Origin: Spirochaetales bacterium
Lineage (GTDB): Bacteria; Spirochaetota; Spirochaetia; DSM-27196; Alkalispirochaetaceae
DNA: 64,000 nucleotides
NCBI GenBank assembly: GCA_028282545.1
Contig: JANQHT010000118.1
Span: forward strand, 62,001-126,000
Direction: 5' to 3'
Position 1 is the first letter of the stretch, and each line of letters begins with the position of its first letter. This document shows, one piece after another, positions 18,256 to 25,947 of this stretch. Below the pieces are notes generated by a model that saw only the letters and a list, made by a program, of their open reading frames with translations, did not search any database and was not told the origin of the DNA. The position numbers were made by a program, and so were the translations under genes.

Positions 18256-19236
18256 CTATGCGCTGGCATCGTAAGCGAAGACTCCGGTAGCGGCGTTGTT
18301 GAGAGGCAACGTCGGTACCAGCTCAACCATCAAATGGGGGTATTGAGGGCGTAGGCGCTCCAAAATCGCCTGCTTTCGTTTGAGCAGCTCATCGAGATGG
18401 ATCGCGTCTCCAGCGTCCGTGGGATGGATCAACACGACGGCAAGGTAACGGCTGCCGGTTTTGCTCATGTACAGGCTGTCAACGGTCAGTTCCGGCGAAC
18501 ACGTTTCACGGATTACGCGGTTGCACTCGTTATACGTACCCTTGTCTTGCAGCACCCCGAGGGCAAGTTCAATGATCGACTCGCGGATTATCTCCAGGGG
18601 CTTGCTGAATAGGCTTACGCAGAGCACCAGTGTGATGATTGAGTCGGCGAGGTACGGCACAAACTGCGTACCGCCGTCGGGCTCCGTGTTGCGCAAAAAG
18701 AATACTCCCACGGCGATACCAAGAGACATCACACCGTCCACAAACGACGCCTTGGCATCAGTTTTCAACAGCGTGCTCTGCCCGCCGACTCTTCGGTTCG
18801 ATAGGCGATAAAACGCCGACAGGAGCAGGCACATTATCGCCATGGTGATCGCGTAGTACAGGATCGGATCCGGGTTGAGCATCGGGATGCTCTCGACGTT
18901 GCCGCCTATATAGGTGATGATCCGAACGATGCTCGTGATCGCCGCCATTACGATCAGCCCGAGGATCATCAGTCCTTTCACGAAACTATAGAGCGCCTCG
19001 TAGAAGAACTGTCCCAGGGGAAACGTCTCGGTGCGCCGAGATTTGATCCGGGAAACCGCCAGGGCGACCCCCATTCCTAAAAAAACTATGAACGAGTAGT
19101 TCCCGTCCAGCAGGATCGCCCCGGAGTTGGATAACCAGTACGTGAACCATGCAATCGCTGCCATGACAAGGTTACCTACGGCGCCAACCCAAAGGGCCCG
19201 TTTCTCGATGTGATCCTGTTTTGGTCTGTTCATCAT
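18256..19236 (-). CDS. Cation diffusion facilitator family transporter
   Basis: 326-residue CDF-family inner-membrane exporter of divalent metals (Zn, Mn, Fe or Co) by proton antiport. About six transmembrane helices; helix 2 carries LLDGNYSFIV and helix 5 DAKASFVDGVMS, which place the acidic metal ligands, followed by a C-terminal cytoplasmic domain with LIHPTDAGDAIHLDEL. Helix 2 reads D-G-N-Y-S instead of the common H/D-x-x-x-D, so metal choice may differ. GGAGG five bases upstream supports ATG 19236 (ATG 19233 also possible). It stands alone between the ClpB relic and a divergent serine hydrolase. Confidence 0.85.
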   Translation of the reverse strand: MMNRPKQDHIEKRALWVGAVGNLVMAAIAWFTYWLSNSGAILLDGNYSFIVFLGMGVALAVSRIKSRRTETFPLGQFFYEALYSFVKGLMILGLIVMAAITSIVRIITYIGGNVESIPMLNPDPILYYAITMAIMCLLLSAFYRLSNRRVGGQSTLLKTDAKASFVDGVMSLGIAVGVFFLRNTEPDGGTQFVPYLADSIITLVLCVSLFSKPLEIIRESIIELALGVLQDKGTYNECNRVIRETCSPELTVDSLYMSKTGSRYLAVVLIHPTDAGDAIHLDELLKRKQAILERLRPQYPHLMVELVPTLPLNNAATGVFAYDASA

Positions 19237-19391
19237 GTGTACCTCCACCCGCGCATTGTTGGCGATTGCGGCTTTTGCGCTCAGTGTTTGTGATCACCAA
19301 TTTCCCCTGACAATTGTCACGCCAACTAGTGATATCTGGTAACTAACAAAGAACGTCCCATTTCCCGTTAACTGTCGCGCAGGAGGACGAA

Positions 19392-20609
19392 ATGAAAAGA
19401 TGGATACGGATACCGGCAATAGTGCTCTTGGTTCTTGCCGGTGTGATTACGATCGTTGGAACGGTGGGTTTCTTCTATCTCAGGAATAGTGAATGGTGGA
19501 TTTCCTTCACCCTGTTCAGCGACGAAACGCGTGTGGAGAACTTCAGAAATTTTCATACACTTTTTCCCGCCGAGCGCGTACGTCCGAGTGGCGATACCTG
19601 GGAGTTTGATTCCGACCCCCGGCGTCTCCCTCACTCCTTTGTCTACAACGGCGAGGAACGGAGCGTGGAAGAGTTCCTGGATAGTACATGGACCACGAGC
19701 CTTGTTGTGGCGCGTGGAGAGACGATTCTGGCGGAGGAGTACTTCCGGAGCTACGATGCGGAGTCGTTGCCTACGTCTTTTTCAACGGGCAAATCGGTCG
19801 TTTCCGCTCTGGTTGGAATCGCGATCGACGAAGGCTACGTCACGTCGGTGGAGGATCGTGTCGATACGTATCTCCCATCCTTCGCGGGTACCGACTACGG
19901 AGCCGTGTCCGTATACGACCTGCTGACCATGTCATCGGGACTCGGATTCGACGAGGACTACGACACGTTCAATTCCGACATCAACATGTTGTCCGTTCGC
20001 GTCTTTGGATTCGAGGATGCCTTGCCGGACCTCCTCCGGGACACGGAGGCCATCCGTCCCGCCGGGACCTACAATGAGTACATAAGCAGCGATACGATCG
20101 TTCTAGGCCTTGTGGTCGAGGCTGCGACGGGACGGAGCCTCAGCCGGTTTTTGGAGGAGTCCATATGGGGGCCGGCGGGTATGGAGTTCCCGGCGTACTG
20201 GAATACCGACGTTCACGGAAACACCTTGGGAAATGGGTTTCTTTCCGCGGCTCCCCGCGACTTTCTGCGTTTTGGCATGCTCTACCTCAACGAGGGCCGC
20301 CGCGACAATCGAAGCATCATACCCGCCGATTGGGTGTTCGATTCCGTGTACCGAACGGAGCCGCGCCTTCAGCCCGGTACCAACCCGGATAGTCACTGGA
20401 CCTTTGGGTACGGATACCAGTGGTGGATCCCGGAAGAACCCGAGGGCGACTTCACCGCAATAGGAATATGGGGACAGTACGTGTACGTCCACCCGGAACA
20501 CCAGGTGGTCATCGTGAAGACAAGTGCAGACGAGGGTTTCGATGAGCGCGACCACGAAACGATAGCGCTCTTCCGGGCACTTGCCGAATGGGCGGCATCG
20601 CTCCCGTGA
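19392..20609 (+). CDS. Membrane-anchored serine hydrolase, class C beta-lactamase family
   Basis: 405 residues with an N-terminal membrane anchor (about 8-30) and a periplasmic beta-lactamase/DD-peptidase fold domain. The catalytic Ser-x-x-Lys is S131-T-G-K134 and the Tyr motif is Y230-I-S. This family includes beta-lactamases, peptidoglycan carboxypeptidases and esterases; the sequence alone does not say which. A strong AGGAGG precedes the ATG. The gene ends 16 bases before the pseudo-ATPase gene, so it probably forms an operon with it, the transporter-kinase fusion and the response regulator. Its last 114 bases are part of a duplicated segment also found at 25057. Confidence 0.82.
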   Translation: MKRWIRIPAIVLLVLAGVITIVGTVGFFYLRNSEWWISFTLFSDETRVENFRNFHTLFPAERVRPSGDTWEFDSDPRRLPHSFVYNGEERSVEEFLDSTWTTSLVVARGETILAEEYFRSYDAESLPTSFSTGKSVVSALVGIAIDEGYVTSVEDRVDTYLPSFAGTDYGAVSVYDLLTMSSGLGFDEDYDTFNSDINMLSVRVFGFEDALPDLLRDTEAIRPAGTYNEYISSDTIVLGLVVEAATGRSLSRFLEESIWGPAGMEFPAYWNTDVHGNTLGNGFLSAAPRDFLRFGMLYLNEGRRDNRSIIPADWVFDSVYRTEPRLQPGTNPDSHWTFGYGYQWWIPEEPEGDFTAIGIWGQYVYVHPEHQVVIVKTSADEGFDERDHETIALFRALAEWAASLP

Positions 20610-20673
20610 AGTAGAATGGCGATCAATGGAGAGGCCCGCGCTATCGATCCAGGACTTGCTTTTCCTGGATGAA
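20496..20673 (+). repeat. 178-bp duplicated segment, copy A
   Basis: Covers the last 114 bases of the serine hydrolase gene, the 16-base gap and the first 48 bases of the pseudo-ATPase gene. It recurs at 25057-25234 in the same orientation with about three base differences. Copy A is inside intact genes and is therefore the source. Confidence 0.9.
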
Positions 20674-21576
20674 CGCAGTCGCCCCCTGCTGCACGTGCCG
20701 GATTTTGTGCTGGCACACGACGAGGTGTGTGGGGTCTATGGAGCATCCCGCGGCGGAACCAACCTGTTCCTGAGCTGCATTTCCGGGATGCAACGGCCCG
20801 ATACCGGAGCGATCTCGATCTATGGCGTACCGCTTGAGTTTTCTGCATCGAACAAGGCGCCCGTCGGGTTTATGCCGAGGGAAAGCGGCGTGTTCCCGGA
20901 CTACACCGTGGCTGAGAATATCAAGTTGGCAATTCGCCACTTGTTGCCCCGGAAGCCCTCTTTGAGTGAACGGCGCCGGTACGGGGACCGCGTTCTGTCG
21001 ATGCTCAAACTCCAGGCGTGGGTACACACCCCGGCGAAACGACTGCCCGACGGGGTGTGCCAAAGACTCAGCCTCGCGTGCGCCCTCGTCCACGGGCCCC
21101 GCCTTCTCGTAGCTGATGATCCCTGGGGCCGTGCGGACATCGAGAGCCGCGACCTTATCGAACGCGCCCTGAGGGATCACTGCGACCGGGGGAACACGCT
21201 GCTGTTTGCTTCCCCGCGGGAGGCGGAAATCACGGCGATCGCCACCGACATATGCCTGTTCGATCAATCCACCCTCGTTGCGCGCGGGACGCTCGATCAC
21301 CTGCGGGAGTATCTCGATGCACGGGAGACGATTGTCGTGCGTGTACATGATCGGGCGGCACTACTCGCGGATCGTGTCGGTACCCTGTCCGGTGTTCTCG
21401 GCTGTGAGGAGAGGGGTGATACGGTGTACATATACGCTTCACCCGATTCGATCCGCCTTACTCGTCTGGCGGAACACGTCCAGGACCTTGGACTCGAACT
21501 TCTCGGTATGCACATAGAGACGCCGCAGCTCAGCGAGATCTACGCAACCGTCGTCGGCGAAGGAGTCGGGGGATAG
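20626..21576 (+). CDS. ABC ATPase with degenerate nucleotide site
   Basis: 316 residues with an overall ABC ATPase layout, but the key motifs are altered. Walker A at 39-46 reads GASRGGTN: the invariant Lys is Thr45 and the following Ser/Thr is Asn46. The signature is LPDGVCQRLSLA instead of LSGGQ, and Walker B ends LLVADDPW with Asp in place of the catalytic Glu. It is probably unable to hydrolyse ATP (inference). The C-terminal 90 residues resemble the regulatory tail of drug-export ATPases. It overlaps the next gene by one base (TAGTG), so it is coupled to the membrane protein-kinase fusion. Confidence 0.75.
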   Translation: MERPALSIQDLLFLDERSRPLLHVPDFVLAHDEVCGVYGASRGGTNLFLSCISGMQRPDTGAISIYGVPLEFSASNKAPVGFMPRESGVFPDYTVAENIKLAIRHLLPRKPSLSERRRYGDRVLSMLKLQAWVHTPAKRLPDGVCQRLSLACALVHGPRLLVADDPWGRADIESRDLIERALRDHCDRGNTLLFASPREAEITAIATDICLFDQSTLVARGTLDHLREYLDARETIVVRVHDRAALLADRVGTLSGVLGCEERGDTVYIYASPDSIRLTRLAEHVQDLGLELLGMHIETPQLSEIYATVVGEGVGG

Positions 21577-23765
21577 TGGCTCTTCGCGTCAAGATCTCCA
21601 AGAGGGCTCTGTTGCGGGAACGGACAACCCTGTTTCAGTCGTTCGTACTACCCGTCGCGCTGTTGACTATTCTCGTTGTGAGCCTCGGACCGAACTTCGG
21701 CAACGCTGAAAACAACGGGGAGACGCTGAGATCGTTCTACGTTCGTTTCCCCGTTGCCGATTTCTATGCGGCGGTCGTGCTTCTCGTTGCATTGCTTGCC
21801 GCCGGTCAGTACGCGTCGGATCCGGTCCGGCACCTTCGCGGCCCGGGCCGCGCGCTCCACCCGTACTCAACATACCGCTCTCTTCTATCTGCGTACCTGT
21901 CGATAGTTACCGGCACCGCTCTTTTTATCGGAGGCCGGACGGTATTCTTCATGGCGGTATCCAGCCTCTTCCTGAACGTCGCATGGCCGTGGGTCAGTCT
22001 CTCGTTCTGGATTCTCCTCGCGGGACTTGTGCTTCTGAGCGCTACGGGTGGATGCGCCCTCGGGTTGGCCACCGCGGACGAGGGTTCCTCGGATCTCCTG
22101 GTATCGTTGCTCGTGTATGGGTCCGCGCTTGTGGCCGGCGCATTCTATCCGTACCCGGCGTCGTCGCGCATCTGGAACGTTGCCCCCTGGAGCCCGTTTA
22201 CGCATCTGTTGACCCACATGCTGGACATCATGCGACAACCGGACACTCCGCTGGATACGCGTGGATACGTCGTCTGGGCATCCGTCCTCGGGGCTACGGG
22301 GATGGCGTTGCTGCAACTGCGCCGCCTCGCGACCGGATCGCGCGCGGTACGGTCCACTATCGTGTACACCAACCCGAGCGGGTATCTGACGGGGTGGGCC
22401 AGGCGTCGCCAACCACAGTTGCTGTGCAGCTTTGGAATCATCCTGTTGCCCCTCGGTATTTGGCTTGCCGGTCCGGCCGATCTCGTGCCGGGAGACATGA
22501 CGGATACGCTGGGCCTTCTGTATCCGTACGCCGACTTCGCAACGGTATTGCTGCTCCTCTTGGGATCGGTATCGGTATCACCCCTGGTGGATGGCTCGGC
22601 CGTCATCCGGCGGTTGCAATCGTTTCGCCGATCGTTCCTTTTTCAGCGGGCGATCTTCGGAACCGGCGTAGTTACGCTATCTATGCTCGTGGCGGCGTTG
22701 CTCTGGAGGCCGTCGGTACCGATACTGGGATATGCAGCCGGAGCGCTCGCCCTCTTTCACCTCTGGTCGATAGTGTTCATGAGTGCTATTGCGGAGGTAA
22801 GCCGCGATCGTACTACCTACTGGGTCTTTGCCATAAGCGGAGTATTCCTTGTCTCTTTTCTCGGCGGGAGTCTATGGAGCCTCGCTCGTCTCGGGAGACT
22901 CGGGCGTATCGCATCCTTTCTTCTTCCCAACGCACTTCTGTTATACTGTCGATCGCCGTTGGGGCCATCTATCGTTTCCGCGCAGATCGGCGTGTTTTTG
23001 GTGCTGAGCAAACCCGGGGTATGGCGATGGTTTCGTCGGTGGAGACGTGCCCGCGGCTACGGTCCACCTCAATACCCCCTACCCCATGCCGGTATGCCGG
23101 ACCGCGGACCGATGGCGGCGAAAGAACAGAACGATCTCGCGGAGAAACTGGTGCTGAGTGAACGTAAACGTATTCTCGACGAAGTCCACGACACGCTCGG
23201 ACACGGTATCACCGGCGCCCTCTGGCAGATCCGGTCGGCCCGCGGCAAGAGCCGGGAGCCGGCGGTACAAGCGATCCTTGACCGCGCCGGCGAAGGGTTG
23301 GAACAGGGGCTGACGCGAATCAGGTCGTATCTCAGGGACTCAGCACCGCGCCATACCACTGACTGGAGTCAACTACACGAGACGGTGCAACGTTTCTCCT
23401 ATTGCCCGGTTGAACTCAGCGTGCAGGGAGAGGCGGGCGAGTACCATCCGATCGCGGTCAGACGATTTGCCATGACGGTGAAGGAACTCCTGACGAACGC
23501 GCTGCGCTACGGAGAACCCGCCTCAATCCAAATCTATCTGGTCCGGACCGCACGTTTCTGCAAACTTGAATACCGCGAACATGGCCGAGGATGGGGGAGC
23601 AGGGGGCCGCGCATGGGGTACGGGCTCCTGGCGACGCGGAATCTCTTTTCAGAGATCGGCGGTAGCTTCCATCTTGATCATTTGCCGGGTGCCCAGGGTA
23701 TTCGGGTCATCGGGATCATTCCCCAACTGATACCACAGGAGGTACAGGACCGTGAGCCGGAATGA
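21576..23765 (+). CDS. ABC-2-like membrane protein fused to histidine kinase
   Basis: A 729-residue fusion. Residues about 1-480 are a polytopic membrane region in two hydrophobic halves, each starting with a basic segment (RVKISKRALLRERTTLFQS; RRLQSFRRSFLFQRAIFG), as expected of an ABC-2-type exporter permease duplicated in one chain. Residues about 520-720 are a NarL-class sensor kinase: HisKA_3 motif ERKRILDEVHDTLGHG with phospho-acceptor His538, N-box KELLTNALRYG with Asn641, and a G-box GRGWGSRGPRMGYGLLATRN whose usual Asp is replaced by Glu-His. The GTG start overlaps the ATPase stop; the end overlaps the response-regulator start by 14 bases. I infer that the membrane part senses an envelope signal and controls the kinase. 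Confidence 0.78.
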   Translation: MALRVKISKRALLRERTTLFQSFVLPVALLTILVVSLGPNFGNAENNGETLRSFYVRFPVADFYAAVVLLVALLAAGQYASDPVRHLRGPGRALHPYSTYRSLLSAYLSIVTGTALFIGGRTVFFMAVSSLFLNVAWPWVSLSFWILLAGLVLLSATGGCALGLATADEGSSDLLVSLLVYGSALVAGAFYPYPASSRIWNVAPWSPFTHLLTHMLDIMRQPDTPLDTRGYVVWASVLGATGMALLQLRRLATGSRAVRSTIVYTNPSGYLTGWARRRQPQLLCSFGIILLPLGIWLAGPADLVPGDMTDTLGLLYPYADFATVLLLLLGSVSVSPLVDGSAVIRRLQSFRRSFLFQRAIFGTGVVTLSMLVAALLWRPSVPILGYAAGALALFHLWSIVFMSAIAEVSRDRTTYWVFAISGVFLVSFLGGSLWSLARLGRLGRIASFLLPNALLLYCRSPLGPSIVSAQIGVFLVLSKPGVWRWFRRWRRARGYGPPQYPLPHAGMPDRGPMAAKEQNDLAEKLVLSERKRILDEVHDTLGHGITGALWQIRSARGKSREPAVQAILDRAGEGLEQGLTRIRSYLRDSAPRHTTDWSQLHETVQRFSYCPVELSVQGEAGEYHPIAVRRFAMTVKELLTNALRYGEPASIQIYLVRTARFCKLEYREHGRGWGSRGPRMGYGLLATRNLFSEIGGSFHLDHLPGAQGIRVIGIIPQLIPQEVQDREPE

Positions 23766-24426
23766 TGTGATCCGCGTTTTGCTTGCCGACGATGATGGGC
23801 TGGTCCGCGATGGGCTCGCCATGGTTCTTGAACAATCCGGGGATTTTCTCGTCAGCGCCAAAGTCGAGAACGGAGACCAGGCACTTCAATCGCTGTCCCG
23901 GGATGTTCCGGATGTCGTCATTCTCGATATCCGAATGCCTGACATGGACGGCCTCGTATGCTGCCGAAAGATCAAGGAACGCCGGCCGGAGCTCCCCGTT
24001 CTCATGCTGACCACCTTCCAGGACGATGACTACCTTGCCGAGGCGCTGCAGGCCGGGGCTCACGGATACCTCTTGAAGCATCAATCGGCCGAAGCGATAT
24101 GTCTTGCGATCCGCAACGCGGTCAAGGGAACCGTCAGCTTCGAACCGGGAGTCGCCCGGTCCCTGCGTGTACAGACCATCGATCGCAAAGAGGCGCTTCT
24201 CGAAGGGCTTCCTTCGAGGGCAAAGGACGTCCTTCGCCTTCTCGTAGAGGGCTGCTCAAACCGCCAGATCGCCAATCGGCTCTATCTGAGCGAGGGGACG
24301 GTACGGAATTACGTTTCCGCCCTGTTGCAGTTTGCCGACGTTCGGGACAGGACACAACTCGTCATCTGGTACTATAGCAACGGGCACTCCCACCCAAATC
24401 GCTCCGGGTCCCACGAAGAGGGGTGA
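23752..24426 (+). CDS. NarL/FixJ-family response regulator
   Basis: 224 residues: receiver domain with acidic pair ADDD near 13, phospho-acceptor Asp in VVILDIRMPDMDG (about 62), Thr in MLTTFQ and Lys in GYLLKHQ, then a LuxR-type HTH (LPSRAKDVLRLLVEGCSNRQ, then LYLSEGTVRNYVSALL). The start is GTG 23752 with AGGAGG eight bases upstream. It is the partner of the membrane-kinase fusion and probably controls this operon or an envelope response. Confidence 0.9.
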   Translation: MSRNDVIRVLLADDDGLVRDGLAMVLEQSGDFLVSAKVENGDQALQSLSRDVPDVVILDIRMPDMDGLVCCRKIKERRPELPVLMLTTFQDDDYLAEALQAGAHGYLLKHQSAEAICLAIRNAVKGTVSFEPGVARSLRVQTIDRKEALLEGLPSRAKDVLRLLVEGCSNRQIANRLYLSEGTVRNYVSALLQFADVRDRTQLVIWYYSNGHSHPNRSGSHEEG

Positions 24427-24847: not shown

Positions 24848-25056
24848 TTGAAGGAGCTGTTCCAACGCGAGTGGCGGTTTCACAGTAGTGAGGTCCCGGA
24901 TGACGACGACGTCTTCTATTGGCTGTCACTGATGCAACACTATGGGTGTCCGACTAGACTCGTTGACTTCACATTTTCGCCATATGTTGCTGCGTTCTTT
25001 GCGATTGAAGGAATGGACCAAACCGCTGGCGACGCATCGAACACGTGTTCCGTTTT
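24848..25056 (+). pseudogene. Truncated FRG-domain gene
   Basis: The frame starting ELFQREWRFHSSEV and continuing WLSLMQHYGCPTRLVDFTFS then PYVAAFFAIEG matches the core of the FRG domain, whose hallmark is a QHYG-x-PTRL-D-x-T-x-SP run. A stop codon at 24839-24841 cuts the N-terminal side and the 178-bp duplicated segment replaces everything after 25056, so only about 70 residues remain. FRG proteins are often linked to toxins, phage and mobile DNA. The gene looks foreign and dead. Confidence 0.72.
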
Positions 25057-25234
25057 GAACACCAGGTGGTCATCGTGAAGACAAGTGCAGACGAGGGTTT
25101 CGATGAGCGCGACCACGAAACGATAGCGCTCTTCCGGGCACTTGCCGGATGGGCGGCATCGCTACCCTGAAGTAGAATGGCGATCAATGGAGAGGCCCGC
25201 GCTATCGATCCAGGACTTGCTTTTCCTGGATGAA
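25057..25234 (+). repeat. 178-bp duplicated segment, copy B
   Basis: An ectopic copy of 20496-20673 with about three base differences; it includes the stop codon of the serine hydrolase and the first 16 codons of the pseudo-ATPase. Homology ends abruptly at both sides. It interrupts the FRG relic and has no functional frame of its own. Confidence 0.9.
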
Positions 25235-25324
25235 TGAAGTCGTCTCCTGCAGCGGGCTACCTTCCAGCTTGAGAACAGACCACGACCTGGATGAGCAGGT
25301 CAATCGCGTGCCCGTTCCTTTGGA

Positions 25325-25714
25325 CTATAGCCGCGGTAGCTGCGGGATCAAGTCGAAATGGCGGTCGCGACTGTAGAGCGGTACGTCGTATTGGACTACG
25401 AGCGCCGCGATCCAAAGATCGTTGGTCGGAATCGGCGTGCCCGCCGCACGGAGCTGCCGGTAGAGCGTCGCGTAGTGGCGGGTAGTGTCCATCGCGGGCA
25501 GCATGACCTCAACGCGCTCGCGAAGAAGAAACGCTTCAAACACGCGCTGATTCTCGGCTATGTTTGACCCGACCGCAAATCCAGCTCTGATTTCTGCCAC
25601 CACGACAATCGGAACGTTGATTTTCGGTGTCGCCCGAAATATCGATACCACCTCCGGGATTCCATCGACAAAATCCCTGTATCGGTTGGTATCGATCACG
25701 ATTTCTATCGCCAT
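25325..25714 (-). CDS. PIN-domain toxin (VapC-like ribonuclease)
   Basis: 129-residue PIN domain. Acidic metal ligands are visible in VIDTNRY (Asp8), VVVAEIRAG, TNDLWIAA and YSRDRHFD. VapC-type toxins cut RNA and are neutralised by a small antitoxin. Its start overlaps the antitoxin stop by ten bases, the usual translational coupling. The pair lies next to the FRG relic and duplicated segment, in an acquired region. Confidence 0.85.
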   Translation of the reverse strand: MAIEIVIDTNRYRDFVDGIPEVVSIFRATPKINVPIVVVAEIRAGFAVGSNIAENQRVFEAFLLRERVEVMLPAMDTTRHYATLYRQLRAAGTPIPTNDLWIAALVVQYDVPLYSRDRHFDLIPQLPRL

Positions 25715-25947
25715 TGATCTTCGTCCACTGTGTCTTGGTCGGCAACCGCGCGATCAAACTCCTCGTCGGGTATCCAGGTGCCAATCAGGTCGTCCAGGTC
25801 GGCAAAGGCCGGTTCTTCCTGACCGATGCCGAGGCCGCGCCTGAGCGTCTCCACCACAGTCTTGTTTAGGCTCTCGCGCCGTTTGTGTGCCCGATCGCGG
25901 AGCTCCCGGTCGATCGACGGTGGAATGTTACGGATCGTGTACTGCAT
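25705..25947 (-). CDS. Ribbon-helix-helix antitoxin
   Basis: 80 residues. The N-terminal half, MQYTIRNIPPSIDRELRDRA followed by a helix ending LNKTVVETLRRGL, is an RHH (FitA/CopG-like) DNA-binding domain; the acidic C-terminal half (DLDDLIGTWIPDEEFDRAV) would block the toxin. First gene of the pair; probably autoregulated, though I see no clear operator upstream. Confidence 0.8.
   Translation of the reverse strand: MQYTIRNIPPSIDRELRDRAHKRRESLNKTVVETLRRGLGIGQEEPAFADLDDLIGTWIPDEEFDRAVADQDTVDEDQWR

Follow-up and report, generated by a model that had tools for sequence, protein, structure and literature searches.

A probable one-chain sensor derived from an LnrLMN-JK-like ABC-2 exporter and two-component module in a Spirochaetales bacterium

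Organisation of the locus

The window, meaning the whole 64-kb stretch of the Spirochaetales bacterium genome that was analysed, carries between positions 19392 and 24426 a compact block of four genes, encoding a serine hydrolase, an ABC-type ATPase, a membrane protein fused to a histidine kinase, and a response regulator (Table 1). All four lie on the forward strand, with a 16-bp gap between the hydrolase and ATPase genes, a 1-bp overlap between the ATPase stop codon and the fusion gene, and a 14-bp overlap between the fusion and regulator genes, which bears out the tight same-strand packing proposed in the original prediction. The fusion gene starts with a GTG codon. For the ATPase gene, a TTG at 20581 was considered as the start and dropped in favour of the ATG at 20626, a start that is conserved in locus L009.

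The family assignments made in that prediction also stand. The hydrolase has the β-lactamase fold claimed for it (Beta-lactamase, PF00144, 1.5e-33), and its best solved relative is 8rlj, a class C β-lactamase-related serine hydrolase (1.4e-46), followed by 6-aminohexanoate-dimer hydrolases. The ATPase matches ABC_tran (2.8e-14), and the P-loop lysine is missing, as predicted. A HisKA_3 match (1.8e-7) places the expected kinase in the same chain as the membrane protein, with HATPase_c scoring below the cut-off. The fourth product is the anticipated NarL-type regulator (Response_reg, 1.6e-29; GerE, 3.3e-11), with receiver and HTH both intact.

Downstream of the regulator gene, positions 25057-25253 repeat positions 20496-20692 (197 bp, 96% identical, spacing 4561 bp). 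This copy of the end of the hydrolase gene and the start of the ATPase gene is interrupted by stops and looks like the leftover of a recent duplication. By-eye reading also found an apparent FRG-domain-like protein fragment between operon and duplicate (about 24850-25050) and, just 3' of the region on the reverse strand (25325-25947), a PIN-domain toxin/antitoxin-like pair of 129 and 80 aa.

Table 1. Features of the locus, in window coordinates
Feature	Position	Strand	Evidence
CDF (cation diffusion facilitator) family membrane protein, divergent neighbour	18256..19248	-	Pfam Cation_efflux 4.4e-29
TGACAATTGTCA palindrome, 12-mer, candidate operator for the NarL-type regulator, between the CDF and hydrolase genes	19308..19319	.	
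NylB-type (class C β-lactamase-fold) serine hydrolase, membrane-anchored, STGK catalytic motif	19392..20609	+	Pfam PF00144
Pseudo-ABC ATPase (NBD) with DrrA-like C-terminal region	20626..21576	+	motif table, tree, Pfam ABC_tran
Degenerate Walker A, GASRGGTN	20740..20763	+	ORF translation, motif table
Permease 1 core - permease 2 core - histidine kinase fusion, 729 aa, ~12 TM helices	21576..23765	+	
Residues 1-262: ABC-2 permease 1 core without extracytoplasmic domain	21576..22361	+	hhalign
Residues 268-500: ABC-2 permease 2 core without extracytoplasmic domain	22377..23075	+	hhalign, AF2, Foldseek
Residues 501-729: HisKA_3/HATPase kinase module	23076..23762	+	hhalign, motifs
Phospho-acceptor H538	23187-23189	+	
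Glu668 at the G1-box Asp position	23577-23579	+	
NarL/LuxR-type response regulator, receiver Asp59	23752..24426	+	Pfam Response_reg + GerE

Fused relatives and unfused counterparts

Full-length relatives of the fusion protein were found in only three other genomes in a search of 61, namely G041 (49% identity), G027 (46%) and G032 (37%). Samples of 395 class genomes and 393 phylum genomes held no further ones, and none were found in viral contigs. A scan of GTDB contigs returned the same three relatives, Spirochaetes bacterium GSL.Bin19, Spirochaetales bacterium CSSed162cmA_133 and Spirochaetales bacterium IP29b_bin.41; it was built on short peptide patterns, so that distant relatives could escape it. 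The first two, to judge from their names, are presumably from the Great Salt Lake and from soda-lake sediment. The assemblies that carry the four fusion systems are all drafts, and three are named MAGs.

The order ATPase, fusion, regulator is identical in the window genome (G000), G041, G027 and G032, and in all four the ATPase and fusion genes touch or overlap; the repetition of this core order in three other genomes shows that the arrangement is not due to chance. The hydrolase gene also lies upstream of the ATPase gene in G041 and G027, and the G032 contig stops inside the ATPase gene, leaving the P-loop beyond its end. Open frames are preserved across the four lineages at about 38-75% identity, with the hydrolase (71-72% to the G041 and G027 copies) and the regulator (65-75% to the other three) the most conserved; the window ATPase is 60, 49 and 41% identical to the other three.

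The window genome also encodes, at G000:C73 (ATPase at G000:C73:65678), an unfused five-gene operon comprising ATPase, permease 1, permease 2, kinase and regulator, in which the nucleotide motifs of the ATPase, including the H-loop histidine, are intact. Equivalent operons occur in G012, G039, G010 and G016, and permease searches turned up such permeases in roughly a dozen of the class genomes sampled; both permeases belong to ABC2_membrane_3 (Pfam). G032 encodes an unfused operon besides the fusion, and in G027 the permease searches found neither unfused operon nor permeases. In phylogenetic trees the ATPase, kinase and regulator of the fused system share descent with the unfused operons. The fused-system ATPases form a single clade (100/100) that groups with the unfused ATPases (95/98), the fused kinases form a clade (100/100) closest to the unfused kinase of G012 (87/89), and the regulators likewise (100/99), closest to the G012 unfused regulator (98/95). 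Judged by these sequence relationships, the parent of the fused system is an LnrLMN-JK-like five-gene module of which the same genome retains a copy.

In G024 the hydrolase, the CDF protein, an ATPase with intact Walker motifs and a permease 1 with a short extracytoplasmic domain follow in succession (L122, G024:C118); a second contig (L056, G024:C24) carries permease 2 with the kinase and the regulator. Joined, as we infer, the two contigs would give one seven-gene operon, probably a transitional stage.

The fusion protein

What is the membrane half of the fusion? A Pfam scan of the full-length protein gave no significant match for it, and residues 1-262 scanned alone gave a colinear, sub-threshold match to ABC2_membrane (E 0.051). 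When a profile of the four fusions was compared with the unfused proteins, residues 1-262 matched permease 1 (hhalign 98.8%, E 6e-17) and residues 263-500 matched permease 2 (86.8%, E 4e-6); with more permeases added, the values were 98.9% and 3.4e-17 for the first half and 70% and 4e-5 for the second. Controls with reversed profiles and with unrelated MFS and CDF proteins all gave 1% or less, and for the permease 2 match none of 100 block-shuffled profiles scored as high as the real one. The alignments show that extracytoplasmic domains of ~100-200 residues have been excised from each half, at a point between TM1 and TM2, and that the two cores stand in the parental gene order. No match to the TM domain of the unfused kinases was found by profile comparison.

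AF2 modelling of the whole fusion from the four sequences was uninformative (pLDDT 47.9), and alignments that mixed permeases with kinases, made for full-length modelling, put permease 2 on the first half, so the second half was modelled alone. The resulting high-confidence model (pLDDT 84.5, pTM 0.78) is not independent of permease 2, since permease 2 rows were included in its alignment. The best PDB matches listed by Foldseek for this model were ABCG, ABCH, NosY, TarG, KpsM, Wzm and ABCA chains, all of the ABC-2/type V fold, with probabilities of 0.8-1.0 and E values from 0.002 upwards; none of those listed fell below 0.001. Pfam, profile comparison and Foldseek together rule out 7TMR, MASE or another sensor family for residues 1-500, the outcome that the original prediction had named as its refutation. 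The exporter-like protein it described is indeed of ABC-2 type, but is not a single exporter-like protein, as the fusion holds both parental permeases.

The remainder of the chain, residues 501-729, matches the unfused kinases (hhalign 100%, E 7e-40). All four fused kinases keep H538 with its HD motif, N641 and the G2 glycines unchanged. The G1-box aspartate, present in those unfused kinases in which the motif is clearly readable, is glutamate in all four; this, together with the HATPase_c score, implies that kinase activity may be weakened. Taken further, the same two features could make the fusion a pseudokinase or phosphatase only, which keeps the regulator unphosphorylated until a ligand releases it, the phosphate coming from elsewhere, for example from the paralogous unfused kinase that G000 possesses. 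We consider this unlikely, given the invariant H538, N641 and G2 glycines, the carboxylate that glutamate retains, and the failure to find unfused permeases in G027. A fused histidine kinase that signals through H538 is the reading we prefer.

A degenerate ATPase

The window ATPase has lost every nucleotide motif. The Walker A lysine and Ser/Thr are replaced by T45 and N46, the Q-loop glutamine by arginine, the signature SGG by DGV, the Walker B glutamate by aspartate and the H-loop histidine by proline. The motif segments read GASRGGTN, PRE, PDGVCQ, VADDPW and ASPRE in the window protein, GASGDGAN, PRE, PGGVAQ, IADDPW and ASPRE in G041, and GASEAAGT, PPE, SDAVRQ, VAHNPW and TAPRA in G027; in G032, where the P-loop lies beyond the contig, they read PKD, PIGVRR, IADDPL and SCSRE. 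The ABC fold is thus accompanied in all orthologues by loss of the ATP-site motifs. The unfused ATPases keep theirs intact, save for the signature of the G024 protein (LNSGM). The original prediction had held that intact motifs in all relatives would indicate a sequencing error; equal losses in the other fused genomes, with intact motifs only in unfused paralogues, rule such an error out. Its suggestion of a nucleotide- or peptide-sensing ATPase fares less well in the first respect, as there is no sign of nucleotide sensing when all of these motifs are lost.

In an ABC ATP site, one subunit supplies the Walker A and B motifs and its partner supplies the signature. A pseudo-ATPase with neither Walker A nor signature would therefore leave both composite sites damaged, even beside an active partner. 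This bears on the idea that the fused system is still a transporter, its pseudo-ATPase paired with an active ATPase encoded outside the locus, in the manner of heterodimeric exporters of which one site is degenerate, and its fusion both pump and sensor. CbrA is described as having both transport and kinase activities (PMC7096432), and the window genome and G032 do encode unfused operons. G027 appears to lack one by our searches, however, both extracytoplasmic domains are absent from the fusion, and the damage to both composite sites would remain; we regard continued transport as quite improbable.

Could the operon instead be in decay, with the transporter being lost and the ATPase a relic? Degeneracy of all ATPase motifs and the G1-box change in the kinase would fit, as would the duplicated hydrolase/ATPase junction at 25057-25253, which indicates recent rearrangement. 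Yet the ATPases have lost identical residues and retained adjacent ones, the frames are open in four lineages with regulator and hydrolase best conserved, and the fusion, the gene order and the palindrome described below are all conserved, so that we think decay very unlikely.

A pseudo-ATPase kept for a structural purpose, which we favour, need not have the permease core as its partner. The membrane half might sense by itself, with the pseudo-ATPase serving another ligand or protein: its DrrA-like C-terminal region is among its best conserved parts, and the first permease half shows poor conservation of the cytoplasmic-loop residues expected to contact the ATPase. Such a partner seems unlikely to us in view of the abutting or overlapping genes in all four genomes and the retained Q-loop neighbourhood, the region that is normally in contact with the permease. 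Docking on the permease core thus remains our preferred reading.

The hydrolase-CDF pair and a candidate operator

In the window and in G041 alike, the CDF gene diverges from the hydrolase gene. Of 46 genomes of the order, six contain its subfamily: G000, G041 and G032, that is three of the four fusion genomes, and G024, G003 and G013, in which it adjoins the hydrolase. In G003 and G013 (L123 and L124) the two form a two-gene unit, with CDF directly 3' of hydrolase (overlapping it in G003) and no ABC or two-component gene adjoining within the stretches fetched. Canonical CDF proteins carry D-x3-D in TM2 and H-x3-D in TM5. Members of the present subfamily (window, L038, L118, L122 and L123) have invariant D48-x3-S52 and A167-x3-D171 at these positions, and the protein is possibly different from an ordinary metal exporter; a PDB sequence search with it found nothing.

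Within the window, TGACANNTGTCA is matched exactly only once, by the 12-mer palindrome in the CDF/hydrolase gap, against 0.03 matches expected. The centre of the palindrome lies 78-79 bp ahead of the hydrolase start in both the window and G041; in G032 it lies upstream of the CDF gene, with its centre 79 bp before the CDF start. In eight genomes the unfused operons have it, exactly or with a single mismatch, at 62-100 bp ahead of the ATPase gene; it was not found in G176. We propose TGACAATTGTCA, on the strength of its position, as a candidate regulator site that may be shared with the unfused operons, and the CDF gene is probably a co-regulated part of the unit. Other exact matches in G000, and a second site in G012, are inside coding sequence, so no further targets are suggested. 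In five unfused operons (L057, L058, L109, L112 and L113) a second, half-conserved site, TGACACATTTCA, lies 23 bp from the first palindrome; its presence suggests paired dimers.

Discussion

The system to which the unfused spirochaetal operons most readily compare is LnrLMN-LnrJK (YfiLMN-YfiJK) of Bacillus subtilis; both have an ABC ATPase, two ABC-2 permeases, a HisKA_3 kinase and a NarL-type regulator, and the Lnr label for the spirochaetal modules is used here by analogy of architecture. LnrLMN dampens signalling by LnrJK, so that transporter and kinase are functionally coupled (PMC7472640). By descent, as far as sequence can tell, the fused system belongs beside such modules, yet without their defining features: its permeases and kinase are a single chain in place of separate permeases with extracytoplasmic domains, its ATPase lacks intact Walker A/B, signature and H-loop, its kinase has no multi-TM sensor of its own, and it is linked to hydrolase and CDF genes.

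In Bce modules an ABC transporter serves a kinase without its own sensing domain (PMC10314905). BceAB-BceRS, however, consists of separate proteins, and its signalling needs ATP binding and hydrolysis; BceB is a ten-helix permease of FtsX/MacB type with one large extracellular domain, whereas the fusion has ~12 TM helices and the ABC-2 fold. In Ks-Amt5 of Candidatus Kuenenia stuttgartiensis, a transporter domain that has lost transport directly controls a fused kinase (PMC5764959), but this protein has an Amt fold, is trimeric, binds ammonium and has no ATPase partner. The SLC5-STAC histidine kinases CbrA and CrbS also combine a secondary-transporter domain and kinase in one chain (a 'transceptor'), but with an SLC5 symporter fold rather than ABC, and without a pseudo-ATPase gene. 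In the open-access literature searched, no account of a histidine kinase joined to an ABC permease was found.

We think it likely that an LnrLMN-JK-like module, an ABC-2 exporter with its NarL-type two-component system, has been rebuilt into a one-chain sensor that controls the hydrolase and CDF genes. Both permeases have been stripped of their extracytoplasmic domains, and the kinase of its own membrane domain. The 12-TM core would then be an ATP-independent sensor, without an ATP cycle, on which the pseudo-ATPase docks as a structural subunit; a kinase dimer would join two such cores. Lipid stress, or a ligand in the membrane or periplasm, would alter the shape of the permease core, and with it how H538 is autophosphorylated and how phosphate passes to D59. 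The regulator would bind TGACAATTGTCA and induce both its own four-gene operon, from hydrolase to regulator, and the CDF gene that diverges from it, the anchored, periplasmic hydrolase and the CDF protein being the output and the former transporter only the sensor. A ligand resembling polyenes or lipid stress is suggested by the Lnr relationship alone, and the envelope as the signal is a guess. The idea, already present in the original prediction, that a transporter has been turned into a sensor gains support from the ABC-2 homology of the membrane half and from the ATPase motif loss in all fused relatives.

How exporters and kinases communicate is an open question: Bce signalling needs ATP binding and hydrolysis, and the damping of LnrJK by LnrLMN is unexplained. 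Here the ATP cycle has been removed and the partners stand in one chain, so that signalling by conformation only becomes directly testable. On balance, and with some reserve, we favour the view that this is the first ABC transporter to have become a nucleotide-independent sensor, in which both permease cores would form the input domain of a kinase, the former ATPase would be a subunit without catalysis, setting or transmitting the shape of the permease, and a transitional seven-gene stage is still extant in G024. If this is true, the conversion of a transporter into a kinase sensor, known for Amt and SLC5 proteins, extends to the ABC superfamily; the system would also be a case of an ABC ATPase kept without catalysis, and would identify an uncharacterised hydrolase-CDF pair as its output.
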